From: Gemmatimonadaceae bacterium | GTDB taxonomy: Bacteria > Gemmatimonadota > Gemmatimonadetes > Gemmatimonadales > Gemmatimonadaceae | Reading direction: 5' to 3' | NCBI GenBank assembly: GCA_019752115.1 | Contig: JAIEMN010000022.1 | Span: forward strand, 1-64,000 | DNA: 64,000 bases | Part shown: positions 10,842 to 26,796 of the stretch, in pieces | How the letters are laid out: each line of letters opens with the position of its first letter | Numbering within the stretch: position 1 is the stretch's first letter | The notes under the pieces: generated by a model | The model's database searches: none | What the model was told of the DNA's origin: nothing | The model's input: only the letters and a program-made list of their open reading frames with translations | Program-made: the position numbers and the translations under genes

Positions 10842-13800
10842 TCACGCAATTTCGCAGGTCTCCGCGAGATACAAACGCTGGCGAAGCGCGTATGCCAGCC
10901 TTGTTTCCACGTACTCAGGAAATGTCTTGGCGACGGAAGCGAGAAACTCGGCGCACGCTGACGCGCGCTTCGAGAAAAAGCCCAAGTGTACGGCCGCTTC
11001 AAACGAGGCCACGTGAAGTGCAGCAACTGCGCCTCCGTCGGGATGGTCGCCACGCCGGAGCCACTCACGGGCTAGCACGCATTCGCGCCGTACGTTTGGT
11101 GGCAGTAACTCGAGATCCGCAGGACTGCAGGGCGCATTCCGAGCGAGCGTAATGATCCAGGCATTCTTCTGGGGATCTCCAGAATTCCACCAGCTGCGCA
11201 CCTCAAGGAGCCCACGTGCGCGTCCGTTTATTGAGAGCACTGATGCCTCGATCCTTCTTAAGCTCCTAAGGACAGAGTTAAGCGACCGAATCGACGCATG
11301 TCGCGCTCGCGAACCCAGCAGATCCTCAAACGTAAGGGGAGCATCTGAAAACACTCCCGACATTTCGGCAAAGCGCTCTCGCGACCACGGTGAGCGATCG
11401 CTTGAACACTTCAACAGACGTAAGAGCGTCGGCCCTTCGTCTGGCCACTCGCGCAGGTCGCCTCCACCGATCACGTACGCCATCAATCGCGCGCTTGCGC
11501 GTACGACCACCGATCTTGATCCGGCTAATGCAACTGCCTCATCTGCCCCTCGCAACCATTGCTCACCGGGGAGTGCCAGCGTTCGTATCAGCGCCTGCGC
11601 TGCGCGGCTGTCGCAGCGATCAGAACCGAGTAGCGTCATCGCCGCGCTTACGGCAGCGCCGGGGCTTCGGAGCGTTGGAGTCGGATAATCAGAGCGCACC
11701 AATATCCGGAGCAGATGCTCTCGCTCGTCCTCAGGCTCTCCAAAGTCCTCGATTCGCTGTGGCCATGGGATCTCAATATGTGCGGGCGCGGAGCTCTCCA
11801 GCTTGTGGAACTCACCATTCGCATCATGGAGCACCAGCTCAACGCTGTATCGACCAGGCAGCAGGCGCGTGCAAGCGACGTTACCCTCAGCGCCCTGCTC
11901 GTGCAAGTACTCAATGACCGGACGGGTCCAAGGACGGTCCAATGAGGCGATTTGGAGTGCTCGGCCTGCAAGCCTTCGGCTATCCGAGAGTCGAAAATGA
12001 AGCCATCGGTCCGTGGGGGTACCGGAAAGAGTTACCGCTTCGAGAGTCACTGAAATTGACTCCTCGAAGCGAGCTAGCAGTGACGAACGTTCTCGCCAAT
12101 GGAGAATCACATCGAAGTACAGATTCTCATCGGAGATCGCATCAGCGATGACACTGGAGAGGTCAACGCAGGTGATCGGCCCCGACTTGACCTGAAACTT
12201 GCTTGAACCGCCGCCATTCCCCTGAACCAACTCGATCTCAGCCGCGCTATTGAACTCAGATAAGTCCAAGATTAGCTGAACATTCGGAACTGTCTTTGCA
12301 GAATACGTAGCTGTGATGGCGGTGCTGTCGAATTGCGAGAATCTGGACTCGCTCACGATTCGCCAGCGAACGATCGGCAGTCGCAGCTGTACTGAGAGGT
12401 ATTCGCCGCCCGAACCGACCGTGAATGTCTGGCGCGCGTTGTCAGCACTTATGCTCAGCGGCCATTCTCTAGAGAATCCATCCATCACCCAACACCCTGG
12501 CCCGATCTCAATGCGCACGTCGGTGCTCTCCCCGGGCATCAAGGCATGTGAAGGCCCTAAAACCTGAATTCGGGGAGCAATGGCGCACGTGTACCTGATG
12601 CTCTCCCCCATAGGTCCAAGCATCCGGAGCGTCAGCGCCGGCATGAACTTCCCGCCGAGTAAACTGGCGATTTGTCTTGAGAAGGCATCGGGTGTAGCGG
12701 CCGGCTGTAGGGACGCGATTACGCCCGTGCCTTGCCTCACCACAATACGCCACAGCGACTCAGCACCATCCTCCCACGGGACAGCGCGGAATATCGGCGG
12801 ACCGTCCAGTATCGGATGGCCCTCTGCAGTCGAGACGAAAGGCACTTCGTTTTCAACATTGAGCGCCCTTCTTGACTGCCTACCGAGGTTAATCCGAAAT
12901 CGATCGAGCCCCAAGGCACCGGTTAACGTCGCGCTCCCGCCGAGTTCCAAATGGTGAACCGTCCACCCGTCCCATCCTTTTGAGCGAAGCTCATAATGCT
13001 GAACTACACGTACCTCGTCATCGCTAGACTCCAGCAACGTTGGCGCAAGCACGACAACACTCGAAACAGGGCAGAACCTACCGTCATTAATCTGCTCGCC
13101 ATTGTCCAAGCGGAACACCAGAAACGGTCGCTCCTCCGTGACGCCCGCAACACCCGAGTGATGCATGCTCCCGTCATCCGCGCTCATATAAGTAACGCGC
13201 CAACGCGGCGCGGGCTGGATAAGGAGGGCTGCATCCGCTCCGCCGGTTACCGTGACCTGCGTGGATGTTCTTCCGGAGTTCTGGTGAATAACCTCTACCG
13301 GTGAGTACCTCTCGTTCGAGGGGATTTGCAGTTCCGGACCCGACAGCGCTTCATACCTGAACAAGAGGCGGGGACGCGGACACATTCGAAGTACGCGCGT
13401 GCCGCTGTCCAGACTTGCTTGAAGGCGTCGGTACTCCTGTACCACGTACGACGGAAGGCCGACCTCTGCCGCCAGATCAGCGCTCGCCAATGCACCGTCT
13501 GCGGCCTCTGGCAATTCCAGAACGCGCTCGAGAAAGTCCGCACCGATACTCCCGGAGGAGCACAGAAAGCGCACTATCGGGCGATCGAGCTGCACTCCGA
13601 GTTGTGCCCCGTCGCGAAGAAGGTCGATAATCTCCTGTTCGTCCCCAAACCCACGTGCTCGCGCCTGATGCACTAGGCGAAAGAGATCGCCTAGGCAGTA
13701 GACCGGCACCCCACCGTGCGCAAGGACGCGTGAAACATAGCGAGACGCGGACTGCTCATCGAACGCGCGAAAGGTCTCTAGTCCTAAGCTTGCAATTGCG

Positions 13801-14111
13801 AATTCAAATGCTTTGCCGACTTCCCATCCACCACTATGCGGCAGTCTAATCCGGCCCCACAGGTCACCCTCATGGTATTCAAAGACTCCCTCCGCCGCGA
13901 TTGCGACAGAAAGGAGCGCAGGATAGTGGGAGGCGAGCAACATGTAGTTGGCTCCGCACTCATGCTCGATGACGCCAAGCACGCGCTCAAGCACAGCATC
14001 ACGAAATGACTTGTCGATCCCTATTTCGAAAATGAGCCGACGACCGGCAAGAGCATTGCGCAATTCGGTCTCAGCATTTGCTGCTGAATCTGCAAGCGTA
14101 ATCTCAGCCAT
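10842..14111 (-). CDS. Large protein of unknown function, last gene of DISARM-like operon
   Basis: 1089 residues from ATG at 14111, seven bases after the upstream stop; a TTG at 14141 overlapping that gene is less likely. No family recognised. The N-terminal 250 residues look alpha/beta. A long central region (about 270-800) is dominated by short alternating beta-strand patterns (TYMSADDGSM, VVVLAPTLLES, YSVELVLHDANGEF), like stacked immunoglobulin-type domains. The C-terminal 250 residues are helical and Arg/Leu-rich. No Walker, nuclease HKD, methyltransferase or membrane motif is seen, so it is not the phospholipase-D protein DrmC. Its place at the end of a drmA-drmB operon suggests a structural or target-recognition role; that is inference. 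Confidence 0.75.
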   Translation of the reverse strand: MAEITLADSAANAETELRNALAGRRLIFEIGIDKSFRDAVLERVLGVIEHECGANYMLLASHYPALLSVAIAAEGVFEYHEGDLWGRIRLPHSGGWEVGKAFEFAIASLGLETFRAFDEQSASRYVSRVLAHGGVPVYCLGDLFRLVHQARARGFGDEQEIIDLLRDGAQLGVQLDRPIVRFLCSSGSIGADFLERVLELPEAADGALASADLAAEVGLPSYVVQEYRRLQASLDSGTRVLRMCPRPRLLFRYEALSGPELQIPSNERYSPVEVIHQNSGRTSTQVTVTGGADAALLIQPAPRWRVTYMSADDGSMHHSGVAGVTEERPFLVFRLDNGEQINDGRFCPVSSVVVLAPTLLESSDDEVRVVQHYELRSKGWDGWTVHHLELGGSATLTGALGLDRFRINLGRQSRRALNVENEVPFVSTAEGHPILDGPPIFRAVPWEDGAESLWRIVVRQGTGVIASLQPAATPDAFSRQIASLLGGKFMPALTLRMLGPMGESIRYTCAIAPRIQVLGPSHALMPGESTDVRIEIGPGCWVMDGFSREWPLSISADNARQTFTVGSGGEYLSVQLRLPIVRWRIVSESRFSQFDSTAITATYSAKTVPNVQLILDLSEFNSAAEIELVQGNGGGSSKFQVKSGPITCVDLSSVIADAISDENLYFDVILHWRERSSLLARFEESISVTLEAVTLSGTPTDRWLHFRLSDSRRLAGRALQIASLDRPWTRPVIEYLHEQGAEGNVACTRLLPGRYSVELVLHDANGEFHKLESSAPAHIEIPWPQRIEDFGEPEDEREHLLRILVRSDYPTPTLRSPGAAVSAAMTLLGSDRCDSRAAQALIRTLALPGEQWLRGADEAVALAGSRSVVVRASARLMAYVIGGGDLREWPDEGPTLLRLLKCSSDRSPWSRERFAEMSGVFSDAPLTFEDLLGSRARHASIRSLNSVLRSLRRIEASVLSINGRARGLLEVRSWWNSGDPQKNAWIITLARNAPCSPADLELLPPNVRRECVLAREWLRRGDHPDGGAVAALHVASFEAAVHLGFFSKRASACAEFLASVAKTFPEYVETRLAYALRQRLYLAETCEIA

Positions 14112-14118
14112 ATGAGCT

Positions 14119-15828
14119 TTACTCTTTACGCTCGCTCTCAACCTTGGTTTGGGTGTTCCGCTTCACTCGCTTATTTGCTGGCGCGCGGTTGGCAGTGGAT
14201 TGCGTTGACCAGAACTCGAGTAGCCGTTCAACCCCTGCCTGGAGAGATGCGCTGGTGATCGCGTCGGAGAGGAAAAGCGATACAGAAATACCTGCCGAAT
14301 CAGCGCTGAGATCGTACACAAGACCAGCGCGACCGATGGCTTCTGAGATCTGCATCCTAGCGGACGCTGTCTTCGGCGACGCGATGGATAGCGTCAGCCG
14401 CACGAGATCTTGAGATGGGAACAGGAACGCCGGCGCGACCATTTGCGCAGCGAGCGTAATCGAGTTCCCATTGCGTTCGACCAAAATGGCGGGACCGTTG
14501 TCAGAGGCACCGATCTGCAGCCCGGCCTCGTTCGCGGCAACCGCGAATCGCTCATACCACTTCGGCATCCCGACTTCTGAGCGCCTAACCACGCGACCGA
14601 AAAGACTGAGTGCTCTAAAGGCAGTGCCATTCTCATATAGAGTTGATGCTCCACTCTCGACTCGAGCGCCATACCCAATCGCCTCGGCAAGCTGCCCTAG
14701 ACCCCAAAGTCGTTCCTTCGTACTGGCCTTTATGTCCCTTGGCAGAGCAAAGATCCCCTCTAGATAGCCAGCCAAGAACATTGCGAATGTCGCAACATGA
14801 CTCCCTACGCGTCCTCCACGAACCGCCGTCGCGGCAAGCTTCTCGACTGATGGCGAGCGCAGGAACGCCGTCACCCCACGTAGAACAATAGCACCGCCAT
14901 CCTGCAAGAGCTCTCGATTACCACCAGGATGCAATGACACCAGTGGCTTAGCGGCGGCAATAAACCGATCCAAGCCGGCAAGGTCGGCTAACCGCCCCGT
15001 CGAGTGCACATCCGCATAGATCGCATCCAAGAACTGAATGGGCTCAAAACCTGTTTGGGCCGAAATTGAGCCTAGTCTCCGAAGAACAGCGACCAAAACC
15101 TCACTTGAGAGCTCGTCAACGGATTCAACGCTGAGGGAACTGCCGAGCGCCAGCCCGAGCATGATGTCTGCATCCTGTCCTCCCACGGAGGCACCGAGAG
15201 CGTTCCAGACATCCTCCGCACGCTCGCGAGACAGAAGGCCAGCGTCGATCGCTGCGAGAATTCCTGCGACTGCCCCAGCGCATTTTTCGGGTCTACGATC
15301 GACCGCCGCTTCACGTGGGGTGCTTAGGATCTCATAGTTCGCCTGCGCAGCACTCACACTTGAAAACAAATGCGGCTCAACGCGAAACTCGACTCCGTCC
15401 AGTACCACATCCGGAAATTCACTAATACGCGCGATAAGCTGGTCACGATACTGTCGCGATCTCACCGAGACAGCAGAGATCTTACTCAACGGTATTGGCA
15501 AACGGACCGCGCCGGCATTAACCGAATCCCGGCCTAAGCTTGTTACGTCAATGGTAAAGACAAATAGCTCACCGCTGTCACTCACGATCCCGCGTGACTC
15601 TGCTAGCTGAGCGGCAGGAACTCCGTCTATCCAGCAGGGAATGTCCGCCCCAGGACGCCAAACGTTTAGCGACGGCATGATCGCGCCGCCGCTTAAGGCG
15701 AGAAGCGCCTCAGTTTCGGGCAGGCAAACGAAGACGTGCAACACCTCCGTTCGCTTCGAAGCGTTGCGGGGCCGCCTCTTGGCCTTGGGAGCCTCCGAGT
15801 TGCCTACGGCAGCTTTCGATTCTTTCAC
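14119..15828 (-). CDS. Protein of unknown function (569 aa) in DISARM-like operon
   Basis: 569 residues. GTG start at 15828 with GGAGAG upstream, directly abutting the stop of the UvrD-like gene. Both ends are highly basic and low in complexity (KAKRRPRNASKR near the start, ANKRVKRNTQTKVESERKE at the end), suggesting nucleic-acid contact. The middle is alpha-helical and Ala/Leu/Ser-rich. No ATPase, nuclease or methylase motif is visible and I recognise no family. It is tightly coupled to the genes on both sides, so it probably works in a complex with the downstream 1089-residue protein. It could be a diverged equivalent of an uncharacterised DISARM accessory protein. Confidence 0.75.
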   Translation of the reverse strand: MKESKAAVGNSEAPKAKRRPRNASKRTEVLHVFVCLPETEALLALSGGAIMPSLNVWRPGADIPCWIDGVPAAQLAESRGIVSDSGELFVFTIDVTSLGRDSVNAGAVRLPIPLSKISAVSVRSRQYRDQLIARISEFPDVVLDGVEFRVEPHLFSSVSAAQANYEILSTPREAAVDRRPEKCAGAVAGILAAIDAGLLSRERAEDVWNALGASVGGQDADIMLGLALGSSLSVESVDELSSEVLVAVLRRLGSISAQTGFEPIQFLDAIYADVHSTGRLADLAGLDRFIAAAKPLVSLHPGGNRELLQDGGAIVLRGVTAFLRSPSVEKLAATAVRGGRVGSHVATFAMFLAGYLEGIFALPRDIKASTKERLWGLGQLAEAIGYGARVESGASTLYENGTAFRALSLFGRVVRRSEVGMPKWYERFAVAANEAGLQIGASDNGPAILVERNGNSITLAAQMVAPAFLFPSQDLVRLTLSIASPKTASARMQISEAIGRAGLVYDLSADSAGISVSLFLSDAITSASLQAGVERLLEFWSTQSTANRAPANKRVKRNTQTKVESERKE

Positions 15829-17013
15829 CTATCTCTCCAAGACCTCGTAGAGCGCCTCGGCAGGCGCTGGTAAGTGCCGTCGGACCATATCAGGATCGGA
15901 AACGAAGCAGAGCTGCAGGTACTCGCGTGCTCGCGAACATGAAACATACATGTTCATCTTGAACTGTTGTTCTCCTGAGCCCTCCGCAGAGGCCAACAAA
16001 AATGGGTCGACCACTACTACCGCATCGAATTCAAGTCCCTTTACGCTCGGCCTAGAGAGCACCGTCACCGTATTAGAGTAGTCAAACTTCAGGTCCGACG
16101 CCTTCAACGACTCGTCCTTGTAGGAGTACGACTGCACCACGACATCGTCGTCACTGGCATAGCGCTCCTGAAGCTGGCTGTAGATGTACTTTCTAGTTCG
16201 GTCCTTGGGACATACGATTCCGACGTCCCAATTACGGTCGCGCGCCTCCTCGATCAATTCAATGATCGATTCGAGCATGGCTGGCTGTCCTCGATGAAAC
16301 GAGACCACCGGCTTGGGTCCCTCGCGACTAGGTGCGCGTGGAATTCCGCTCCTTAGGCCGCAGTAGTAGTGCGCGGCGAACCTGGCGATCTGCTTCGTAT
16401 TGCGATAGTTCCTGCTCAACTCAAACACTCGCTTCTCACCTAATAGCGCTAGAGCTTGCCGAATATCTGCTATCGTCGAGTTCTGCTCGGTCAGCCGCTG
16501 GTTTTCGTCCGCGAAAACGGATAGCGCCGGCGCACTTGCATCAGACCACACGAGCCGAAGGAGCATCGCGAGCGTGCCATACATCGCTGGAGGAAAATCC
16601 TGCCCCTCGTCGACAATGAGATGTCCCCAGTTTGCCCGTTCCGCCCTGCCGCCAGCCGCTACGCGCTGGACCGACGCGGCAATCGCCCCCCAGTCATGAA
16701 CATGTGGGGCAATCATTGGCGGGCTGCCTGCGCCCATTCGCCTAAACCACCGCGTGGCCCAAGAGTGCATCGTAGAGACGTCGATGTCCTTGGCATGGCT
16801 ATTATTCGCGCCGGCGTAATTTGCGAGCACGGAGCTGAACATGATCAGGGACGGCGACTGCCCAAGTTTCCTTAGGTACGTGGCACGATGAAACGCCATC
16901 ACAGTCTTGCCGGTACCCGGGGGGCCGACCACAAGGATGGAGCCATCGGGCGGGGCTCCCTGATAGATCGATCGCTGTTCATCGTCGAGATCAGCAAACC
17001 TCGGCATCTTCAC
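15829..17013 (-). CDS. UvrD/Rep-like SF1 ATPase in DISARM-like operon
   Basis: 394 residues, short for a helicase of this type. Walker A GPPGTGKT at residues 30-37, Walker B LIVDEGQDF at 132-140, motif IV RNYRNTKQIA at 201-210, motif V KGLEFDAVVVVDPF near 320 and motif VI YVSCSRAREYL near 360 are all present, so a minimal 1A/2A core is complete. The large 1B/2B insertions of UvrD are mostly missing. GTG start at 17013, with a GGAG sequence nine bases upstream that overlaps the stop region of drmB; ATG at 17007 is an alternative. It is followed without gap by the 569-residue gene. A UvrD-like ATPase is not one of the classical DISARM core proteins, which makes this arrangement noteworthy. Confidence 0.85.
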   Translation of the reverse strand: MKMPRFADLDDEQRSIYQGAPPDGSILVVGPPGTGKTVMAFHRATYLRKLGQSPSLIMFSSVLANYAGANNSHAKDIDVSTMHSWATRWFRRMGAGSPPMIAPHVHDWGAIAASVQRVAAGGRAERANWGHLIVDEGQDFPPAMYGTLAMLLRLVWSDASAPALSVFADENQRLTEQNSTIADIRQALALLGEKRVFELSRNYRNTKQIARFAAHYYCGLRSGIPRAPSREGPKPVVSFHRGQPAMLESIIELIEEARDRNWDVGIVCPKDRTRKYIYSQLQERYASDDDVVVQSYSYKDESLKASDLKFDYSNTVTVLSRPSVKGLEFDAVVVVDPFLLASAEGSGEQQFKMNMYVSCSRAREYLQLCFVSDPDMVRRHLPAPAEALYEVLER

Positions 17014-17019
17014 AAGTCA

Positions 17020-18798
17020 TTACTCCGGAAGCGGGGGAACGGGGAGCAACCCCGAATCCATTCGACCATCTTCGACACTTAAAAGGAAGTGTCGATCGAG
17101 CAACTGATTATGAAACGTGCAGCTTGTCTCTGAAATGAGGGAGCAGGCATGACACGCCGACCCGTTCATCCCTCGCACGCCCTGAGAGCGCGTTTCTGCG
17201 CATACCGGATCCGCGGAACACCATGCAGCGTCGTTCAGAGCGGCTTCAAGAGTTCTGCCCAGAGTCGCCGGTTCACCCATACGAACCAGTCCACCTAGCG
17301 AACCCTCAGAGTCCGCGTCTGCCGTGTAGATGAGGAGTCCGGCCATGCCATCGCCGGCGTAGACTCTCTCGCGCAACGCTGTCGAAGAATAGCCGGCGTC
17401 AAATGCCAGACGCCTTATAAGCGCATGGCTGAGGGTATGCACAGCCAAAAACCGTGCGGTTACCGTGGCGGGGGATCGACCACTTCCTTGGTGAAGCTGC
17501 GCTAGCCTTTGAAGTCTCGCGAGCAGCGAAGGCGAAAGGCTGTTCTCCCATCGGGATACATACTCCTCTGAAAGTCGAATGAAGACTCCTTCGCCCCACA
17601 CCTCTACACCGGGCAGCCAGTGATTCTCGATAGCAGAGTGAAGCGGCTGCCGAAGCCCTCCATCTGACACTCGTCGAAAGGAGAGCAATGCGCGTACTTC
17701 GCGAAGCCGAGGCAGTAGACTGATGCTCTCAACTGCGTCTTTGAGCTGTAGCGACCAGTCTTCGTGCGGCGGGCGCACCCTGATTATCAGTGATGGGTGC
17801 TCAAGGTCGCTCCTGCGGGAGAGCACTGGCCACTCTCGACGAAGTATCTCCTCTTGAGTCGCACCCGATAGATCATGGTCATTCGCCTCGACGTTTGGCT
17901 TACCCTCCAACTCGAGGATAAAGGCCTCTTCAATCTCCGCAAGCGATACTCCACGTTCTTGCGCAAGGTCGCTGAGTAACTGCCTCCAGGCTTGTGCCAC
18001 GTCCTTTGGCGCAAAAGCTTGAGCCATAGTGCGCGCTGGAGCCCATGTCGGCTTCGCCAACTGTTCTGCCAGAAAGGCTCGCAATCCGCCCGTCGGCATC
18101 GCACCATCAACAACTATGTCGATAGCAGAGAGCTGATCGGGAAAGTAGAGATTGGAATCACCGCGCCGATGACCGAACGGCTGCTTATCACAAGGATCGC
18201 CGTCTTGACTCATCCACGGCTGGCGTCCACGACACTTACCAGGCAATGGACGGGTGGTGAGACCCTCAAGGGTATTTCGTGCTCCGCATTCGCATTCGAT
18301 GCGAAGCGTCTCCCAGTCACCGCCGCGCGCTCCGGTTGTCTTGAAATGCATTCGGGCAGCTCCCGGCGCGCACTGTCCGCTTGATGCAACATGGTTGTTC
18401 CGATGAGCCCAACGAAACCAATCGATCTCGTCGAGATGACCGTCTTCACAGGCCTGAACGAAGCCCATTGGCGTTAACTCCGCCTTTTTGCACTCAGCAC
18501 ATCTCGGGGTGGTGAAGCCCTTCGTTATCAGCTCCGCTTCCTTGTCCGGCGTAAGCTTGACCATGATTCTGCACAACGGGCAGAACAACCAACGCGGAAA
18601 CCGGACAAACGGTGCGCTCGCGAAGGGCGTTCGAATCTCTCGTCGCGTAATTCGCTGAAGTTCGGATTCGGGCAGAGCGAGCGTATCCGCGGGTGCCCAA
18701 CGCGATAGATCCGCACACACAAAGCTATCCTGACCAACTTCGACGATAGCGCCTACCCCAAATGGGGTGACGAGCTGTCCACGGCGAACTCCGCTCAT
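17020..18798 (-). CDS. drmB: DISARM protein DrmB (DUF1998)
   Basis: 592 residues. The N-terminus VRRGQLVTPFGVGAIVE is the typical DrmB opening. Zinc-binding cysteines follow (C73, C76, C100, C103), then ACEDGHLDEIDWFRWAH from residue 117. The C-terminal DUF1998 block contains HTLSHALIRRLAFDAGY, a GLLIYTADADSEGSLGGL segment and a late Cys cluster (SACHACSLISETSC). In characterised DISARM, DrmA and DrmB form a complex that loads on phage DNA 5' ends. The ATG at 18798 overlaps the drmA stop (ATGA), as expected for a complex. Length and motif order are normal for the family. Confidence 0.92.
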   Translation of the reverse strand: MSGVRRGQLVTPFGVGAIVEVGQDSFVCADLSRWAPADTLALPESELQRITRREIRTPFASAPFVRFPRWLFCPLCRIMVKLTPDKEAELITKGFTTPRCAECKKAELTPMGFVQACEDGHLDEIDWFRWAHRNNHVASSGQCAPGAARMHFKTTGARGGDWETLRIECECGARNTLEGLTTRPLPGKCRGRQPWMSQDGDPCDKQPFGHRRGDSNLYFPDQLSAIDIVVDGAMPTGGLRAFLAEQLAKPTWAPARTMAQAFAPKDVAQAWRQLLSDLAQERGVSLAEIEEAFILELEGKPNVEANDHDLSGATQEEILRREWPVLSRRSDLEHPSLIIRVRPPHEDWSLQLKDAVESISLLPRLREVRALLSFRRVSDGGLRQPLHSAIENHWLPGVEVWGEGVFIRLSEEYVSRWENSLSPSLLARLQRLAQLHQGSGRSPATVTARFLAVHTLSHALIRRLAFDAGYSSTALRERVYAGDGMAGLLIYTADADSEGSLGGLVRMGEPATLGRTLEAALNDAAWCSADPVCAETRSQGVRGMNGSACHACSLISETSCTFHNQLLDRHFLLSVEDGRMDSGLLPVPPLPE

Positions 18799-21700
18799 CG
18801 GGTGGATCCAGGTCGCACGATTCGGACGCTAACCTCACTGTCTACATGTCGCATCGTCTGCATCGTTTTCAGGCCCGACTGATCAGCTCCTCCATACGTG
18901 CTCAGAAGGGTCTCGTATTGGGCGCCAGCAACGCCGCGGTGATAGAGGAGGTTGTGCTGCTGATGATCCCGCCAATAATCAACAATTCCTTTCAGCTCTG
19001 ATTGGACTCGTTGCGCGCTCTGCGGCTCTGCAGCAGCCACTCGCTCTGCGAGAGACACCACTAGCTGCTGCACCTCGTCGCCATCGAGGTCGACGAGGGG
19101 CGCGGCCTGATTACTTCCCCAGACGGTTGTATTGCGGATTACAGCGACTAGCGAGGCATGCAGCGTTCGACTAAGAGCAGGAGGAGCCAAGGGGGTTACG
19201 CTCGTCGGCTCCACGAATCGATATAGGTTCTCGTGGAAGGCTTTGAAGTCTTCATAGTGGGATCGATCACGCGACTTCATCGCACTGAAGACGGTTACCA
19301 CGAGGCCTTGGACATCACCACGCCCGACCCTGCTCGTAGCTTGGATGTACTCTGCGGCGAGCTTGGGCTGCCCATTTACCAGCATCAGTCCTAATCGATC
19401 GATATCTATGCCGACCGACATAATGCTTGTACAAGGGACGATGTCTAAGCACGGTTCACCTGACTGCAAAGATGTCTCGAGTCGACGTATCGCATTGTCG
19501 AGCGTCGTCGACATGGTTGCACTCAGTTGCATAACACCTTGCCCACCAAATTCACGGGCGCCTGTTGGCGCGCTCGCGATGACCTGAACACGAGCAGGAA
19601 TCTCGTCGCGGGCGGCGGTCATCGTTCGCCCGAGTTCGCGCCGGCTATTGTGATATGCAACTAAAGTCCAGAATGCATCACGTTCATCGTCAGTGAGGGA
19701 GTTCGATTCCTGCACGGCCTGCAAGAGCGCCGCCGAGGTCCAGACAAGACCCATCAGCGCTCTGGTGTAGCCCTGCCCCATCACTCCGACGTATCTGCGG
19801 GTCCGTTCGTAGTCACTCCGGAAGAAGAACGCGTCATCCCACCTCCTAATTGGCGCAGGGAACACGTAAGAGGGCCTTGCGTACAGCCCGCGTACTTGCT
19901 CGGAGGCATTCTTGATTGTGGCAGTCGAGCAAATGATCTTCGGAACACTGCCGCCACTCCGCACGATGATTTGCTCGATTGCAGCTTCATAGGCCGAGTC
20001 CAGAGTACCGAGCGGCCCGGCAATCAAGTGCAATTCGTCTTGGATTAGGAGGCTAGGCGGAGTGGAGCGACCGTCGACGCCAGAGAAGAACACTCGCGCG
20101 CTCTCTCGCCATGTAAGCTGCGCAAACTTGTCGACGGTTCCGATCAGCATGCTCGGCGGATGCCGATACAGAGATTCGTCGACCAAATCGACTGGAAGTT
20201 GCTCGTGAAACTCGCATCGACTATTTGGGCAGAAGAGTCGGAACTCTTGCTCGGTAGCGACAACTCCCCACTTCTTCGAGTCGTCTGGAAACAGGTCTGC
20301 CGCGCAGCGAGGGCAACGTGACAGGAGGAATGGATTTTTTCGATCTCCCACTCCGCTGCGGAAGTCCTCGAGCTTCTCGTGCGCCTCCACGTAGGTGTTT
20401 GGCGTGAGGCCTTTGTCTCTGCCACCAACCCAAAGCCCCAGGCGAAATGACCGATCTCCGAGCAATCGGGGATCGGCCCGCCTGAGGCGCTCTAATGCCA
20501 CGAATAGCGCGGACGTTCTTTGGAACTGCTGTGCGGTGAGCATCCTCAAGGTGTAACGACTGAGGATTGCAGTGGCACCTTCGCTAACGTGATCGTGCAG
20601 CCTTCGACGTATTAATTCAAATGCCGCAAGCAGTAAGTAGGCCTCCGTCTTTCCGCCGCCAGTCGGAAACCATATCACGTCTGCGGTAAGCCGCTCTGGT
20701 GCCTCCTCATTACACAGTCCCTCCAGCACTCCGAGAAAGAACGCTATCTGGAATGGACGCCACACTCTTCCTTCGTAGTGAGCAAGCTCTGGAGGGGTCG
20801 GATCGATTAAATGCTGGTTCTTTCGAGCAACTTCCTTGAGATAGGAGGTGAGAACCATCTGCTCACCCATCGCAGTATTCGCCATTCCGAATGCCCGGCG
20901 TGCGATCGCGTCTGACTCAAGGCGGCGCACGCCCTGACGCATTCTCTTTGCCCACCCCCCAGCGCGAGACGCGAGCTCGACCGCTACCTGCTCGTGTAAC
21001 ATCCCGGCTTCAGCACGTTGCTGTTCGATCCATTCTTCATATGCTTCAACGAATCGACCGAGAACTCGCGCCAGCTGGTCAGGCTGGTCGACCTGCTCCG
21101 AGAGCCACTTTACAGACAGTGCCGATGGGTCGATAGCCGCGGACGCTGGCAGCGTGAATGTTGCGAGTGGTACGTCAGTCGAGGGGAGGAAGTTGATCGA
21201 CACCTCGGTACAGCGCCCCCCCTCTAGCTTCCAGTCGCCCGAGACCCCATGGCCACGTGCGAATGGAACGGACGCGCGATAGAGAAACTGCTCCTCTCGC
21301 AGAGCGTCTGAAGCCTTAGCCGGCAGCGGATACGGGTGCACGGTACCCGAGCTCGGGCTACACGAGAGAGCAACCTGAAACAGCGCGCGCTCCGTGTCCA
21401 ACGCCGATCGCTGCCGTTGCTGATTGACTAGAGAGACCGTAACGAGCCGCTTGTCTCGGAGTGTGCGCCACCGCGACGTGACCACAGCGCGCCCATCAAA
21501 GATCACTGCGGTTGGGCTTCCTTGCGACAATTCGACAACATGGCCACTTCCATCCGCCAGCGGGATCCGTTGCCATCTCTCCTGCGACCGGCCCCTTGCG
21601 GGCTCTGGACTCTCTGCGGGGATCTGCTCATATCGTGCGCCGTTGACTGTGCACGAGACTGTAACACCTGCATCGACTACGAAACTGATACCGACGGCGC

Positions 21701-21968
21701 TAGGCAGCGTCTCGTCCGCAAGAGATAACCAGTCGTCTGCGCCACCGTCGTCTTCCTTCCTTCCCGTTGCCTGCGGCGACGGAAGATCAACGCCGGCGGC
21801 GACTTGATCAGCGGCTCCATCTATAGAACCGCCTTGCCCGAAAAGAATCCCCATCATGTACTGTAGCCAGATGCGTCCCTCGACGACCTCCGTCGCTCCC
21901 GAGCGCGGCCCAACAAGCCGACTCGAGAGAAATGAGACAATAGAAGCGCGTCCGTCAGATGCGGTCAT
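18795..21968 (-). CDS. drmA: DISARM helicase DrmA
   Basis: An SF2 helicase of about 1057 residues from the ATG at 21968; an upstream TTG at 22046 would add 26 residues with an unlikely hydrophobic stretch. The N-terminus (IVSFLSSRLVGP) is typical of DrmA. Walker A is WFPTGGGKTEAY and the DExH region reads LIQDELHLIAGPLGTLDS, both diagnostic for the family. A CPRCAADLF...CPNSRCEFH zinc element lies between them. The helicase C-terminal part has SVGIDIDRLGLMLVNGQPK and ATSRVGRGDVQG. In known DISARM systems this ATPase is the core motor with DrmB. It is translationally coupled to drmB downstream and separated by about 180 bases from the NERD-ATPase gene upstream. Confidence 0.92.
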   Translation of the reverse strand: MTASDGRASIVSFLSSRLVGPRSGATEVVEGRIWLQYMMGILFGQGGSIDGAADQVAAGVDLPSPQATGRKEDDGGADDWLSLADETLPSAVGISFVVDAGVTVSCTVNGARYEQIPAESPEPARGRSQERWQRIPLADGSGHVVELSQGSPTAVIFDGRAVVTSRWRTLRDKRLVTVSLVNQQRQRSALDTERALFQVALSCSPSSGTVHPYPLPAKASDALREEQFLYRASVPFARGHGVSGDWKLEGGRCTEVSINFLPSTDVPLATFTLPASAAIDPSALSVKWLSEQVDQPDQLARVLGRFVEAYEEWIEQQRAEAGMLHEQVAVELASRAGGWAKRMRQGVRRLESDAIARRAFGMANTAMGEQMVLTSYLKEVARKNQHLIDPTPPELAHYEGRVWRPFQIAFFLGVLEGLCNEEAPERLTADVIWFPTGGGKTEAYLLLAAFELIRRRLHDHVSEGATAILSRYTLRMLTAQQFQRTSALFVALERLRRADPRLLGDRSFRLGLWVGGRDKGLTPNTYVEAHEKLEDFRSGVGDRKNPFLLSRCPRCAADLFPDDSKKWGVVATEQEFRLFCPNSRCEFHEQLPVDLVDESLYRHPPSMLIGTVDKFAQLTWRESARVFFSGVDGRSTPPSLLIQDELHLIAGPLGTLDSAYEAAIEQIIVRSGGSVPKIICSTATIKNASEQVRGLYARPSYVFPAPIRRWDDAFFFRSDYERTRRYVGVMGQGYTRALMGLVWTSAALLQAVQESNSLTDDERDAFWTLVAYHNSRRELGRTMTAARDEIPARVQVIASAPTGAREFGGQGVMQLSATMSTTLDNAIRRLETSLQSGEPCLDIVPCTSIMSVGIDIDRLGLMLVNGQPKLAAEYIQATSRVGRGDVQGLVVTVFSAMKSRDRSHYEDFKAFHENLYRFVEPTSVTPLAPPALSRTLHASLVAVIRNTTVWGSNQAAPLVDLDGDEVQQLVVSLAERVAAAEPQSAQRVQSELKGIVDYWRDHQQHNLLYHRGVAGAQYETLLSTYGGADQSGLKTMQTMRHVDSEVSVRIVRPGSTR

Positions 21969-22151
21969 AAGGGCCCCGGAGGCAAGCAGCAAACATAGAG
22001 CGGATTTGAGCCAGCGTTCAGGCAGGGTGTGCCCGAGCGTTAACAATTAGCTCGATTGTACGCGGAAGACAGTCATCAGTCAAACGCGCACCCACACCAC
22101 GGGTTTACGATCGCGCAGGCCTTGAGGCAAGACTAATTGAGTAATGGCTCT

Positions 22152-23780
22152 CTAGGACACGCCTGATACGGCAAGCGCCAGCATTCGCGTTTTTATACCG
22201 GTAGTACAGGCGATCACACCTGCAAACGTTGCACGCGTGACTGCGAGATATGCCAGTCCACGCAACTCTTCGTCAGACAAAACATCATCCAATCCGAAAA
22301 TCTGTACGTACTCACTCTCGAGACCTCTGAACTCATCGATCGCGGCAAGGGCAACCGATCGCCCACGCTTCGCCATCGCGAAGGAAGAGCCCCAAGGAGC
22401 CGGTTCGAGAGCAGCCTTGCGTGAACATGCAATCGCGTCGCTCCTTCCCGCTTCACTAGCGTATAGCAGTACAATCTCGTCCGGAGGCGTCTCAGCGATT
22501 ATCCAGCTTGATAGCTGCGCGGCAGCGGCGGCGGCTACATCAGACCTTCGATGAGCGACTGCCCATCCTAGCTGCGGACCAGCTCCGCGCACCCTCGCAG
22601 TGCCGATGCGAATCCCAGACAGGGTTTCCGCAGCAGCCAAGAGCTGAGGAGTGTTTCGGCAGTTCTGAAATATTTGTTGCGGCAATGCCCATCGACGGAG
22701 CTCATCTAGAACCGACTTATCAACGGGCGCCTTGATTGATATTTGACTCTTATAGTCGCCAAACCAGCACCAGCGTCCGGAGGACAGTCCACCCGCAACG
22801 CACGTATCGAGCGCTAGGGCGTAATCAACGTTGGTGATCTGCTGCCCCTCATCGACAACCAGAACATCTGCGATCGGCTTTCCCTTCCGGTCAATGAGTG
22901 AGCTCGCGGCCACAACCTCAACGTTCTCAGGTAGTCCAGCCGTCACGCTTAGGTATTGAGCAAGGGCTTCCGCGCCGCACACGAAGAGCACCCTGCGCCC
23001 ACAAGTGGCTTCGCGGCGCGCGAACTCGATGGCAAGAAAGGTCTTTCCGCACCCGGCACCTCCGGTGACGAGGAGTCGAGGCTCAGTGCTTAGCTGATCG
23101 AGAAGCTCGTACTGTTCCTCCGTGAGCTGAACACGCTCTTCGCGCGTCGCTCGCAAACGAAGCGAAAGAGGAACTGCGCGGTCGAACTCAGGCCGAAGTC
23201 GGCGCACTACGCTTTGAATTGTCGTACTGCTCCAGTCGCCCTTGGCGCTACTGTGCTTCTGCCAGTAACGCACCACACGATTCAGAAATGCCACCAGCGA
23301 TCGAGAATTCTCGAGGTCCTCACAGCTGCCCGTGAGCTCTGCCGGCATCTCTGGACCACCGACAATTCCTTCTAGATCCTTTCGACGCATGCTCGCAAGG
23401 ATGACGCAAAAACCACCAAGCACAGGCTTGGATAGTCCAAGCGACGCGTCTCGTGCCAGGAGTCCCTCGAGAGCAAAGAACCCACCGCTTGCCTGAGCAA
23501 ACGGACTTTCCTTGCGACGTATAGTTCCTCGGTCTGAGCGATATTGCCATTCTCCGTCGTGACACGAGACCGCGCCTCCTTTGACTTCAATGGCAATCAG
23601 CCCAAACGGGCTGAGCACCACAAAGTCGATCTCTCCCCATCTCTTGCGCTCATTCTCGGACAGGTTGACGGACGACAGCGCGACTGTGTCTTTTGCCCAA
23701 TCGGTCGCCTGCAGCAGTTGAAACACGTGCTGCTCGGTCCAGGTGAGTCCTACACTTGGAGAGGTGGGGATAATCTTCAC
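22152..23780 (-). CDS. NERD-domain nuclease/SF1 ATPase fusion
   Basis: 542 residues. N-terminal NERD-type nuclease domain: E near residue 18, then GEIDFVVLSPFGLIAIEVKGG (about 48-68) giving the D...E-x-K catalytic pattern. C-terminal SF1 ATPase: Walker A GGAGCGKTFLA, Walker B LVVDEGQQ, a Q-sensing NCRNT motif, DEFRGLESEYVQIFG and YLAVTRAT. GTG start at 23780. It sits immediately upstream of drmA, about where accessory genes lie in DISARM class 2 loci; I cannot tell whether it corresponds to DrmE. A DNA-end-acting nuclease/translocase fits phage DNA degradation (inference). Confidence 0.85.
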   Translation of the reverse strand: MKIIPTSPSVGLTWTEQHVFQLLQATDWAKDTVALSSVNLSENERKRWGEIDFVVLSPFGLIAIEVKGGAVSCHDGEWQYRSDRGTIRRKESPFAQASGGFFALEGLLARDASLGLSKPVLGGFCVILASMRRKDLEGIVGGPEMPAELTGSCEDLENSRSLVAFLNRVVRYWQKHSSAKGDWSSTTIQSVVRRLRPEFDRAVPLSLRLRATREERVQLTEEQYELLDQLSTEPRLLVTGGAGCGKTFLAIEFARREATCGRRVLFVCGAEALAQYLSVTAGLPENVEVVAASSLIDRKGKPIADVLVVDEGQQITNVDYALALDTCVAGGLSSGRWCWFGDYKSQISIKAPVDKSVLDELRRWALPQQIFQNCRNTPQLLAAAETLSGIRIGTARVRGAGPQLGWAVAHRRSDVAAAAAAQLSSWIIAETPPDEIVLLYASEAGRSDAIACSRKAALEPAPWGSSFAMAKRGRSVALAAIDEFRGLESEYVQIFGLDDVLSDEELRGLAYLAVTRATFAGVIACTTGIKTRMLALAVSGVS

Positions 23781-23871
23781 GGGTCAGGCGCTTGGAGATT
23801 CGTTTGCACGAAGGCGGCGAAGTAGCCGTATCCCGGACTGCCAGGATCCCACATTCGCTTTCGTTCGACTT

Positions 23872-24987
23872 TCAGTCGGCTGAGAAGAGATCCGTCGCCT
23901 TTGAGAGCATTGTTTTCGCCTCGGCCGGCCTCGATTTCTTTCTTGCCCCCCCACGCATCGCACCGGTGCCGCCCGCCGCCTGAGCGGCGCGGCGCTGTTC
24001 TCGTAAAGCCTTAGCCCTGTTGCGAAGCTCAATGATCTCCGCCTCATGCGCGCGGATACGATTCATCGACTCCGGAGATAGACTCGCCAGCCTGAAGGCA
24101 CGATGCCGATCAGTACGCAGGTTGGCAGCTTCAGCTGCAAGCGCTTCGCGCAGCCCAGTACCTGCGCGTGCACCGATGCCATTCTTGCTAAAAAATTCGC
24201 TCAGCTGTAGCGCGACGCCGCTCTCGCTCGCTTTACCCCAGTAGTTCCCGCCCGTAACCCGAGAGGCTCGAAGGCATTCTAGTCGCTTGGGATTGTACTT
24301 GGTTTTGTTTGTGGGCACCGTCGCGAAAGCGTAGCTAAATCGCTTGAATGACTGAGGATGGTACCCCTTCACTCCCACCGAGACAGACAGGTCTGGCACC
24401 TTGGAGTGATAGACGATGTCCCAGAGCATTGGGATTTGCGCATTCTCGTTCCAGTTGGTCTTACACTGAATCACCGCTAAAGACGTCTTTGAGATCAACT
24501 GAGAACACGCAAAATCAAGTTGAGCATCAAGCGAGGACGAGACTGTCAGCGCGTTATTGAGCACCTCGTGCCCATCAGGAAACGAGACTGCAACTAGATC
24601 AGACTCTGAGTTTGCCGTTACTGATTCATAAATGATCGTAACGGCGTTCTGAATGGACTTAGGCGCCATCGCCCGCTTGAAGACAACAGCGTCCGATCCG
24701 ATCAACGCCAGGTTCAGGTACCAGCAGACGAGCGACTCCCAGTTGTTTCCTGCATTCGCAACGGCGTCTTGACCGCGCTCGCCGGCCCTTCGACTCAGAA
24801 AAACGTCGCGTAGGTGGCCGCTCAACGCGAAAACGCTGTCAGCAGTCGGAGTATCGCCCAGCTCATGATTGATTTTCGGGGCCCAATCCAACCAGGCAAA
24901 TTCAAAGTCAGATGGAGTTCCCTTCTTCGAACGCGCAAAGAGGGCGTCGATTACCCAAGCTCGAGCGTTTTCACAGAGAATGGACAT
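23872..24987 (-). CDS. Putative type II restriction endonuclease
   Basis: 371 residues from ATG at 24987, preceded by AGG-rich sequence. Between the C5 methyltransferase gene and the NERD-ATPase, on the same strand. A PD-(D/E)XK-like core is suggested by QLDFACSQLI followed by LAVIQCKTNWN, where Q-x-K replaces E-x-K, and by a preceding ESDLVAVSFPDG. Downstream are AQIPMLWDIVY and a Lys/Arg-rich tail rich in Ala. This layout resembles sequence-specific endonucleases paired with cytosine-5 methylases. I do not recognise the specificity. The long basic C-terminal segment (residues 290-371) is unusual. An alternative is a modification-dependent or regulatory protein of the same locus. Confidence 0.6.
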   Translation of the reverse strand: MSILCENARAWVIDALFARSKKGTPSDFEFAWLDWAPKINHELGDTPTADSVFALSGHLRDVFLSRRAGERGQDAVANAGNNWESLVCWYLNLALIGSDAVVFKRAMAPKSIQNAVTIIYESVTANSESDLVAVSFPDGHEVLNNALTVSSSLDAQLDFACSQLISKTSLAVIQCKTNWNENAQIPMLWDIVYHSKVPDLSVSVGVKGYHPQSFKRFSYAFATVPTNKTKYNPKRLECLRASRVTGGNYWGKASESGVALQLSEFFSKNGIGARAGTGLREALAAEAANLRTDRHRAFRLASLSPESMNRIRAHEAEIIELRNRAKALREQRRAAQAAGGTGAMRGGARKKSRPAEAKTMLSKATDLFSAD

Positions 24988-25057
24988 TCGCCTGAACCTA
25001 GTTGATGCGGTTTGGGATCTCGCGCGGAGCGAAAGAGAGAAACTTCCAAGGACATCG

Positions 25058-26314
25058 CTATAGCGCAGTCGGATTGTGTCCTTCCAACAGTGCACGCAAG
25101 TGCAACCCGAGCTCCCGCGCGAGCCCCACTGGCACTGCATTACCGATTTGAGTGTACCTCGGCACCTCGCGCTCCCACATGTCTAGATCTGGGATTCCGG
25201 CACGCCGGTGACCACCAGTCGTGCGGGGCCCCCTAAACTTGTACCAGTCGGGAAAAGCCTGAAGGCGCGCCCACTCACGGACGGTAAGAATTCTAGGCTG
25301 CGAGTAGTGAACGAAATCATCAGGGAGCGAAGTGGCCGTGATTGTCGGCCCCACTGACGTCCAACGGGGAGGCAGCCATCGTTGGGCGAATTTCTTCGTT
25401 TTGTGCTTGTCTGAAATCGCTCCACGATTGTCAATCATGTACTGGAACTTTTCGACAACACGCGCGGAGTGCTTAGCGTAGTCTTGCTCCAGCAGCTCAT
25501 CGCCTGCGCGCATCAAGCTTCCGTCCGGCTTAGTGCGCATCATTCGCTGGTAGTTCGTCTGGGGCTCTCGCAGGTAGCGTTCCGTCTTACCCTGAGACAA
25601 GTAGTCCTTGTCTACAAGATCATCGAGGACATCCACGAGATCCGGCGCAGGTATCGCACGCTGAGGGATAAGTCCGCGGGGATTATCCGTGAGGTTATCC
25701 CGCACGCTTGTCGCGATCGGAAGCTTCAGGTCCTTCCGAGCGCCGACTAGAAGAATTCGCGGACGATTCTGCGGAATGCCGAAGCTCTTGGCTTGCACGA
25801 GCTGCCACCCGACCTCGTAGCCAGGAATTCTCTCGAAAGTGTGACGAACCTCATCCCAGATCTCACCCTTGCGCCCTTCTTGCGTCCAGCGACCTGAGAG
25901 TAGACCACGAACATTTTCAAAGATGAAGAACTTCGGGCGAATAGAGGAAACCACGCGCACCATCTCTCGGAAGAGATGGTTGGACGGGATCTGCTCCTTC
26001 TGAACGCTGTAGCTCCGGCGATGTCCGATTCCTGAAAAGCCCTGACACGGCGGTCCGCCCGCCACGATATCCACTTCAATGTCTCGCTTCTTCCAGCCCT
26101 TCTTCAAGGCAGTTAGGCGAGCATCAGACAACTCCTCGATCCCTCCGACTCGTTCAACGTCAACTCCTCCAAGATTCTCCTCGAAGGTGTCCGCAGCATC
26201 TCGGTTGATCTCTGAGAACAGGATGGTCCTAAATCCCGCCTGGTGAAGGCCTAGCGAAAGGCCTCCACACCCCGAGAAGAGGTCGACCACGTTTAGCTGC
26301 TTGCCAGGTTGCAT
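25058..26314 (-). CDS. DNA (cytosine-5-)-methyltransferase
   Basis: 418 residues from ATG at 26314. All main C5-methylase motifs are present: I VVDLFSGCGGLSLGLHQAG (residues 9-27), IV GGPPCQGFSG with catalytic C90, VI FENVRG with E133, VIII PQNRPRILLVG, and X QIGNAVPVGLA near the C-terminus. The target-recognition region lies between about 250 and 370. It is the first gene of the long minus-strand block and is followed by a putative restriction enzyme, so it could protect DNA against that enzyme, against the DISARM-like machinery (DrmMII of class 2 DISARM is also a C5 methylase), or both. A vsr-type gene starts 41 bp away in the opposite direction. Confidence 0.93.
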   Translation of the reverse strand: MQPGKQLNVVDLFSGCGGLSLGLHQAGFRTILFSEINRDAADTFEENLGGVDVERVGGIEELSDARLTALKKGWKKRDIEVDIVAGGPPCQGFSGIGHRRSYSVQKEQIPSNHLFREMVRVVSSIRPKFFIFENVRGLLSGRWTQEGRKGEIWDEVRHTFERIPGYEVGWQLVQAKSFGIPQNRPRILLVGARKDLKLPIATSVRDNLTDNPRGLIPQRAIPAPDLVDVLDDLVDKDYLSQGKTERYLREPQTNYQRMMRTKPDGSLMRAGDELLEQDYAKHSARVVEKFQYMIDNRGAISDKHKTKKFAQRWLPPRWTSVGPTITATSLPDDFVHYSQPRILTVREWARLQAFPDWYKFRGPRTTGGHRRAGIPDLDMWEREVPRYTQIGNAVPVGLARELGLHLRALLEGHNPTAL

Positions 26315-26355
26315 TCGGTTACGAGTCTGTTGAAGCGTGCACTGAGGAGGACACC

Positions 26356-26796
26356 GTGGGACAAGACACCAAGAATCGCGGGATCGTTTCGCCTCCAAGC
26401 TCCGCAAGATCGCGGATTATGAGCGCCATAAAGTCGAGAGGTAATCGTTCTACCGAGATGAAGCTGGCGGAGCTATTGCGTAGGGTTCCCGCCCTAAAGG
26501 GGTGGCGAAGACACGCTCCACTTGCTGGAACCCCCGACTTTACTTGGAGAAAGGCAAAGTTGGCTGTTTTTGTAGACGGCTGCTTCTGGCACGGTTGTCC
26601 TCGATGCTATGCCAAACCCAGAAAGAACGCGGAGTTCTGGGCGGCAAAGGTCGAGAGCAACCGCCGACGCGACCGGCGAGTAAACAACGAGCTTCGAGCT
26701 GCGGGCTGGACTGTTCTCCGGGTGTGGGAGTGCAGAGTCTCTAATTCAGGAACGCTTGGGCGAATCTCTCGTGCGCTTCGTGCATCGCGCAGTTAG
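26356..26796 (+). CDS. vsr: Very short patch repair endonuclease (Vsr)
   Basis: 146 residues. GTG start at 26356 with an excellent GAGGAGG site five bases upstream. Vsr hallmarks: RSRIMSAIKSRGNRSTEMKL at residues 19-38, GTPDF (metal-binding Asp), then FVDGCFWHGCPRCY with the zinc/catalytic His and Cys, FWAAKVESNRRRDRRVN, and AAGWTVLRVWEC. Vsr nicks T:G mismatches arising from deamination of 5-methylcytosine, which fits its position divergent from the C5 methylase. The short intergenic region (41 bp) must hold both promoters or one of them. Length is normal for the family. Confidence 0.93.
   Translation: MGQDTKNRGIVSPPSSARSRIMSAIKSRGNRSTEMKLAELLRRVPALKGWRRHAPLAGTPDFTWRKAKLAVFVDGCFWHGCPRCYAKPRKNAEFWAAKVESNRRRDRRVNNELRAAGWTVLRVWECRVSNSGTLGRISRALRASRS

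Follow-up and report, generated by a model that had tools for sequence, protein, structure and literature searches.

The DNA analyzed here is a 64,000-nt stretch of a Gemmatimonadaceae bacterium genome (GenBank assembly GCA_019752115.1, contig JAIEMN010000022.1, positions 1 to 64,000; hereafter the window), and our subject is an operon of eight minus-strand open reading frames which, in a program-made list of the window, extend from 26407 down to 10842. The operon is centered on drmA and drmB, probably serves an anti-phage function, and in the interpretation we favor belongs to a widespread class related to, and separate from, the defense system DISARM. The initial annotation had described eight genes on one strand with tight coupling behind drmB, and the open reading frame coordinates, hidden Markov model (HMM) identities and spacing agree with that description: drmA and drmB overlap by 4 bp, 6 bp separate drmB from the gene for P6, P6 and P7 abut with no intervening base, and P7 and P8 are 7 bp apart when P8 is read from ATG 14111. 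The Vsr gene lies beyond the eight genes listed at that time. The features are as follows.

26356..26796, plus strand: Vsr-type endonuclease of 146 aa (PF03852, 1.6e-13), divergent from the C5 methylase
25058..26407, minus strand: C5-cytosine DNA methyltransferase (PF00145, 8.7e-60; TIGR00675, 1.3e-51), start probably ATG 26314
23872..25140, minus strand: 422-aa protein of no known family with the motif D209-x16-QCK, start probably ATG 24987 (371 aa)
22152..23780, minus strand: P3 (NERD-SF1), 542 aa, NERD nuclease domain plus SF1 ATPase (PF08378, 3.1e-9), the proposed nuclease
18795..22046, minus strand: P4 (DrmA), YprA-family SF2 helicase of 1083 aa (NF038325, 6.3e-236)
17020..18798, minus strand: P5 (DrmB), DUF1998/MZB zinc-binding protein of 592 aa (NF038324, 9.3e-117; PF09369, 5.3e-9)
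15829..17013, minus strand: P6, UvrD/HelD-like SF1 ATPase of 394 aa without a nuclease domain (AAA_19, 2.7e-6)
14119..15828, minus strand: P7, 569 aa, predicted from family matches and a structural model to be ADP-ribosyltransferase (ART)-like at 28-156, ADP-ribosylhydrolase (ARH)-like at 175-394 and CesT-like at 420-549
10842..14141, minus strand: P8, 1089-1099 aa, the last gene of the operon, start most likely ATG 14111, no homologue found

With ATG 24987 as the start of the 422-aa protein, the overlap of its gene with the methylase gene disappears. HMM scans against Pfam, NCBIfam and PADLOC gave no match for the 422-, 569- and 1099-aa proteins.

Canonical DISARM (Ofir et al. 2018) reportedly consists of drmA, drmB, drmC and a methylase gene, together with drmD in class 1 or drmE in class 2. 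DrmA of the window scored 786 bits against NF038325, below the equivalog cut-off of 950 bits, and matched the PADLOC DrmA profile at 5e-183; DrmB, encoded by a separate gene adjoining drmA, scored 391 bits against NF038324, above its 240-bit cut-off, and carries the one MZB domain matched in the 5.17-Mb genome. The C5 methylase supplies the DNA methyltransferase expected of canonical DISARM (PF00145, 8.7e-60) and also matches PADLOC DrmMII (1.9e-47). HMM scans of the eight operon proteins found neither DrmD nor DrmE, and a phospholipase D (PLD) scan found no match anywhere on the 190-kb contig of the window; in a control genome (G300) a PLD match lies directly behind a drmB. A profile made from four annotated DrmC sequences, which recovers an adjacent DrmC at other Gemmatimonadota DISARM loci and at canonical controls, detected none in the window and none in any of the 80 loci described below that carry P6. 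The HKD motif (HxKx4D) is absent from all eight operon proteins and present in all four control DrmC proteins. The reported lack of a DrmC/phospholipase D protein is thus confirmed by HMM and by motif, and because DrmC and DrmD or DrmE are missing we place the operon outside canonical DISARM.

The strong matches of DrmA and DrmB to DISARM models, and a C5 methylase of a kind that also belongs to class 2 DISARM, could be read as an ordinary DISARM whose drmC was lost or displaced and to which neighboring defense genes (a Type II restriction-modification pair, helicases) became attached by chance in a defense island; drmAB loci without drmC do exist outside the P6-bearing branch discussed below (L194, L195, L198). 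One of them, on a Sphingomonas plasmid (L195:9811-16589), has the order drmD-methylase-drmA-drmB followed by type I-E cas genes in the slot expected for drmC. Evidence bearing on this reading came from three independent seeds, namely DrmB in Gemmatimonadota, P6 in species genomes and DrmA in plasmids, all of which recovered the same operon. The DrmB search matched 14 of 394 genomes of the same class, including two loci (L030, L033) in which drmA-drmB-P6 is accompanied by a 620-aa protein of weak similarity to P7. When the P6 alignment was scanned against 84,980 species genomes it yielded 80 loci, in most of which DrmA, DrmB and P6 stand in direct succession, and iterative profiles placed P7 immediately behind P6 at about 50 loci spread over many phyla (53 family matches). 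The order NERD-drmA-drmB-P6-P7 occurs at 12 loci, drmA-drmB-P6-P7-NERD at 22 and drmA-drmB-P6 at 27, mostly in actinomycetes; P6-P7 without drmAB was found at eight. The plasmid search, which was seeded with DrmA and not with P6, returned this gene set, with P7 right behind P6, from plasmids of Deinococcus and Photobacterium, and the annotation of the Photobacterium operons shows no NERD gene alongside. The suggestion that P6, P7 and P8 form a recurrent trio next to drmAB therefore holds for P6 and P7 after drmB and is not supported for P8, which has no homologue anywhere searched.

In a DrmA tree of 72 proteins, built by a quick search without bootstrap, drawn with midpoint rooting and composed mostly of rows fetched via P6, all 51 P6-bearing rows fall on one side of a branch with an SH-aLRT value of 98, and every DrmC-bearing row falls on the opposite side. 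Rows seeded with DrmB or DrmA follow the same division, with the P6-bearing ones inside the branch and the P6-less ones outside. DrmA of the window lies inside the P6 branch, where it groups with L072 and L062 (support 100), an acidobacterial and a Pseudomonas operon. That the P6 rows form one branch apart from all DrmC rows, that DrmC occurs in none of the 80 P6 loci, and that P6 and P7 occupy fixed positions behind drmB across many phyla, an order not expected from a chance island, largely refute an ordinary DISARM assembled by chance, which we regard as quite improbable.

The missing DrmC raises the matter of the nuclease. NERD residues E50, D52, E65 and K67 are all present in the window protein and do not vary in any of 40 homologues, as would be expected of an active PD-(D/E)XK enzyme, and the ATPase motifs of NERD-SF1 are almost invariant. 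In P6, residues K36, D135, E136, R204 and R361 are essentially unchanged across about 80 orthologues. Given the conservation of its catalytic residues, the NERD protein appears to be the best candidate for the nuclease role held by DrmC elsewhere. The initial annotation had proposed a DrmC-less DISARM-like subtype with a NERD nuclease, a proposal that, at the level of sequence, is well supported by the single P6 branch of DrmA, the lack of DrmC at 80 loci and the invariant NERD residues. The NERD partnership extends beyond the P6 branch: a Rhizobium plasmid (L155:7615-16651) carries UvrD-drmA-drmB-NERD, and another locus (L032:1282-10963) carries DrmE-like, NERD-SF1, drmA and drmB, both without DrmC.

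A BLAST-type search with P7 in Gemmatimonadota returned only P7 itself, and its family emerged only once loci in synteny were compared and profiles were iterated. P7 was modeled with AlphaFold2 from 47 homologues (pLDDT 72, pTM 0.65), and the model was compared with known structures using VIA-align. In this predicted model, residues 28-156 resemble DarT (Z 9.4, root-mean-square deviation (rmsd) 3.2, 125 aligned), residues 175-394 resemble ARH3-type ADP-ribosylhydrolases (Z 12.7, rmsd 3.8, 204 aligned), with ARH3 proteins in the top ranks, and residues 420-549 resemble CesT-type chaperones and proteins like them (Z about 10.8, rmsd 3.5, 120 aligned). Foldseek gave no match for the model at E <= 0.001. 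A diverged phospholipase D fold, which the initial annotation had thought might hide in one of the proteins without a family, is not among the listed P7 structure matches, and P7 has no HKD motif. Some versions of P7 carry a C-terminal 2-oxoglutarate-Fe(II) oxygenase domain (PF13532, up to 2.9e-22 in L088), including several from loci without drmAB, and some carry an N-terminal transposase-type helix-turn-helix. Scans of viral contigs with P7, P8 and DarT gave no matches.

By inspection, the P7 alignment has no conserved glutamate at the DarT catalytic position, and the acidic metal-site motifs of ARH proteins were not seen in the P7 sequence. For these reasons an adaptor or sensor role is likelier for P7 than an enzymatic one, its catalytic residues being probably missing, to the extent that inspection can tell. 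The fold matches themselves, with DarT among them and ARH3 in the first ranks over about 200 residues, would suit an active ADP-ribosylation module in which an ART writer and an ARH eraser modify DNA or protein upon infection, making P7 a NAD-dependent effector instead of, or besides, NERD; sub-threshold matches of P7 homologues to the 2CompART family, described below, point the same way, as does an operon of broadly similar type on an Azospirillum plasmid (L159:8254-15671), in which a UvrD helicase, DrmA, DrmB and NERD are followed by a DarT-family gene. Against such an effector stand the apparently missing glutamate and acidic motifs and the fact that Z values for helical folds of this sort can reflect common arrangements, and we consider it unlikely. 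Also rather unlikely is the idea that a P7 combining ART, ARH and CesT domains is a new kind of component which detects or produces an ADP-ribose signal on DNA or on protein, uses it to gate DrmAB and the NERD nuclease, and so links DISARM-like restriction to NAD/ADP-ribose chemistry.

Taken together, these observations lead us to regard the operon as probably a member of a widespread, separate DISARM-like class whose core is NERD-SF1, DrmA, DrmB, P6 and P7, with NERD in place of DrmC. In the mechanism we propose, DrmA with its DrmB canopy would engage exposed single-stranded or 5'-end DNA of an incoming phage and translocate along it, a mode of DNA entry suggested by structural work on DISARM. 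P6, as a further SF1 motor, would use P7 as an adaptor to couple DrmAB to NERD-SF1, which would cleave the invading DNA and thereby replace DrmC. P7 would most likely act as a scaffold or regulator composed of degenerate ADP-ribosyltransferase-like and ADP-ribosylhydrolase-like domains and a CesT-type protein-binding domain. The C5 methylase probably marks host DNA, Vsr would repair the deamination of m5C, the 422-aa protein is perhaps the cognate restriction enzyme, and P8 may be an accessory component.

Several observations weigh against this interpretation. The actinomycete members consist of DrmA-DrmB-P6, with P7 not detectable and NERD often not detectable, so the core may be smaller or another partner may be used. 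P6-P7 occurs without drmAB in several loci, and the pair is thus not exclusive to the DISARM-like system; it seems to be a transferable module (pairs without detectable drmAB are found at L085, L088, L093, L097, L100, L108 and L127). The domain calls for P7 rest on a model of moderate confidence: the Pfam family 2CompART (PF22546) matches 9 of 47 P7 homologues, all below the Pfam cut-off (best 1.8e-5), and profile comparisons between P7 and the sequences of DarT and ARH proteins did not reach significance, only the last helix aligning with the ARH sequences, which leaves these calls dependent on structure comparison and the 2CompART matches. P8, moreover, is not conserved, and one gene of the trio named in the initial annotation is left without explanation.

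A different division of the operon has to be weighed where the methylase is concerned. Of 16 loci in which NERD comes first, 11 have a C5 methylase nearby, as opposed to none of 22 in which NERD comes last, other methylase types not having been systematically searched for. Vsr and C5 methylase pairs also accompany the related loci L063, L066, L072 and L157, and several loci carry other restriction genes (Vsr, MvaI/BcnI-like enzymes, McrBC-like genes). All components of the core are present at the 22 NERD-last loci, which have no C5 methylase within reach and, where neighbors were scanned, mostly ordinary genes in their flanks, and in most NERD-first relatives the methylase is on the opposite strand; all of this would suit two independent systems, a Type II restriction-modification system (methylase, 422-aa enzyme and Vsr) and a methylation-independent DrmAB-P6-P7-NERD system that recognizes DNA ends or single-stranded DNA, with P8 as unrelated cargo. 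The tight order of the eight genes of the window on one strand and the recurrence of the C5 methylase near NERD-first loci speak for a single system, and we view the two-system arrangement as possible and less probable than not. Within the separate DISARM-like class, the NERD-last loci suggest that self-recognition may be methylation-based in only part of the class. These members, with the core and no C5 methylase nearby, could show directly whether what DrmAB systems recognize is DNA ends or single-stranded DNA and not methylation. Among NERD-last loci, L124 has an RNase T-type exonuclease upstream and L116 a Type III-like restriction enzyme gene nearby. For the 422-aa protein, the earlier label of restriction enzyme has a single D...QCK motif (D209-x16-QCK) as its sole basis, with no family match and no match in the plasmid collection; it is a possible PD-(D/E)XK restriction enzyme.

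Searches of about 395 Gemmatimonadota genomes, of the plasmid collection, of the viral contigs and of the fetched loci returned no homologue of P8, and a single-sequence AlphaFold2 model was uninformative (pLDDT 38). In an Erythrobacter locus (L073:12805-16134), a YjiT/DruH-family protein (NF038336, 4e-91) is encoded directly behind P7, which makes that locus a possible Druantia-DISARM hybrid. On the basis of the same slot and length and a short motif likeness, P8 was considered as a possible distant DruH/YjiT protein; the likeness did not stand out against shuffles and decoy open reading frames, and the score of 17.8 against the YjiT/DruH profile was attained by 89 of 150 shuffles.

With DISARM classes 1 and 2 (structure PMC9142583; annotated examples L156, L192, L193 and L196) the operon shares split tandem DrmA and DrmB, a nearby DNA methylase and an association with restriction-modification, and it differs in lacking DrmC (PLD), DrmD and DrmE, in having NERD-SF1, P6 and P7, and in the separate branch of its DrmA. 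Other systems share the YprA-family helicase. TALON (PMC12458937) also has a NERD nuclease, whereas its helicase is ARMADA-like and unsplit and comes with TPR-CSD and TBP genes, which are not seen in the operon. ARMADA type II (PMC12458937) pairs the helicase with an SF1 partner (GajB-like UvrD), and ARMADA differs in its BrxHII-like and PglX-like genes and in a helicase with a Vsr-type nuclease fused at its C-terminus, all absent from the operon; HMM scans of the operon proteins found no BrxHII-like, PglX-like, TPR-CSD or TBP domains. Druantia III (PMC13192584) has its YjiT/DruH-family counterpart in the P8 slot of L073, whereas DrmA and DrmB of the operon are split and on the DISARM side, and P8 has no significant similarity to DruH.

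A DISARM-like system associated with McrBC is noted by Bell et al. 2024 (PMC11090510), and Bell et al. 2025 (PMC12458937) refer to "many uncharacterized DISARM-like classes," which probably include the present class; in relatives L066 and L157, McrBC-like genes adjoin the operon, a likeness to the McrBC-linked system. The accessible main text of both papers holds no description of the gene set, a NERD nuclease, P6 or P7 in DISARM-like operons, and targeted literature searches returned no paper joining DISARM with NERD, ART or CesT components. We therefore treat the operon as a variant class related to DISARM, not canonical DISARM, with a gene set not described before in the literature searched. 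If this is correct, there would be at least two large DrmAB classes, DISARM and a second one spanning many phyla, using a different nuclease and extra motors, and missed by annotation that relies on DrmC; P7 would bring an ADP-ribosylation-related fold into the restriction of phage DNA.

A Streptomyces fungicidicus plasmid member without P7 and NERD (L154:6123-9944) encodes a 1273-aa sigma-70-family protein directly upstream of drmA-drmB-P6. Its candidate identity as MzaA was rejected, the MzaA match being no better than general sigma-70 models, and it thus does not point to an MZA system. In Pseudomonas sp. BN102 (L062:12941-16381), the region downstream of P7 encodes a 546-aa protein of unknown family and a 592-aa Hsp70/actin-like protein. 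In the window, the opposite (plus) strand immediately to the left of the operon encodes an SF1 AAA_11/AAA_12 helicase (4535-6445) and an 825-aa protein without a family (7383-9860).

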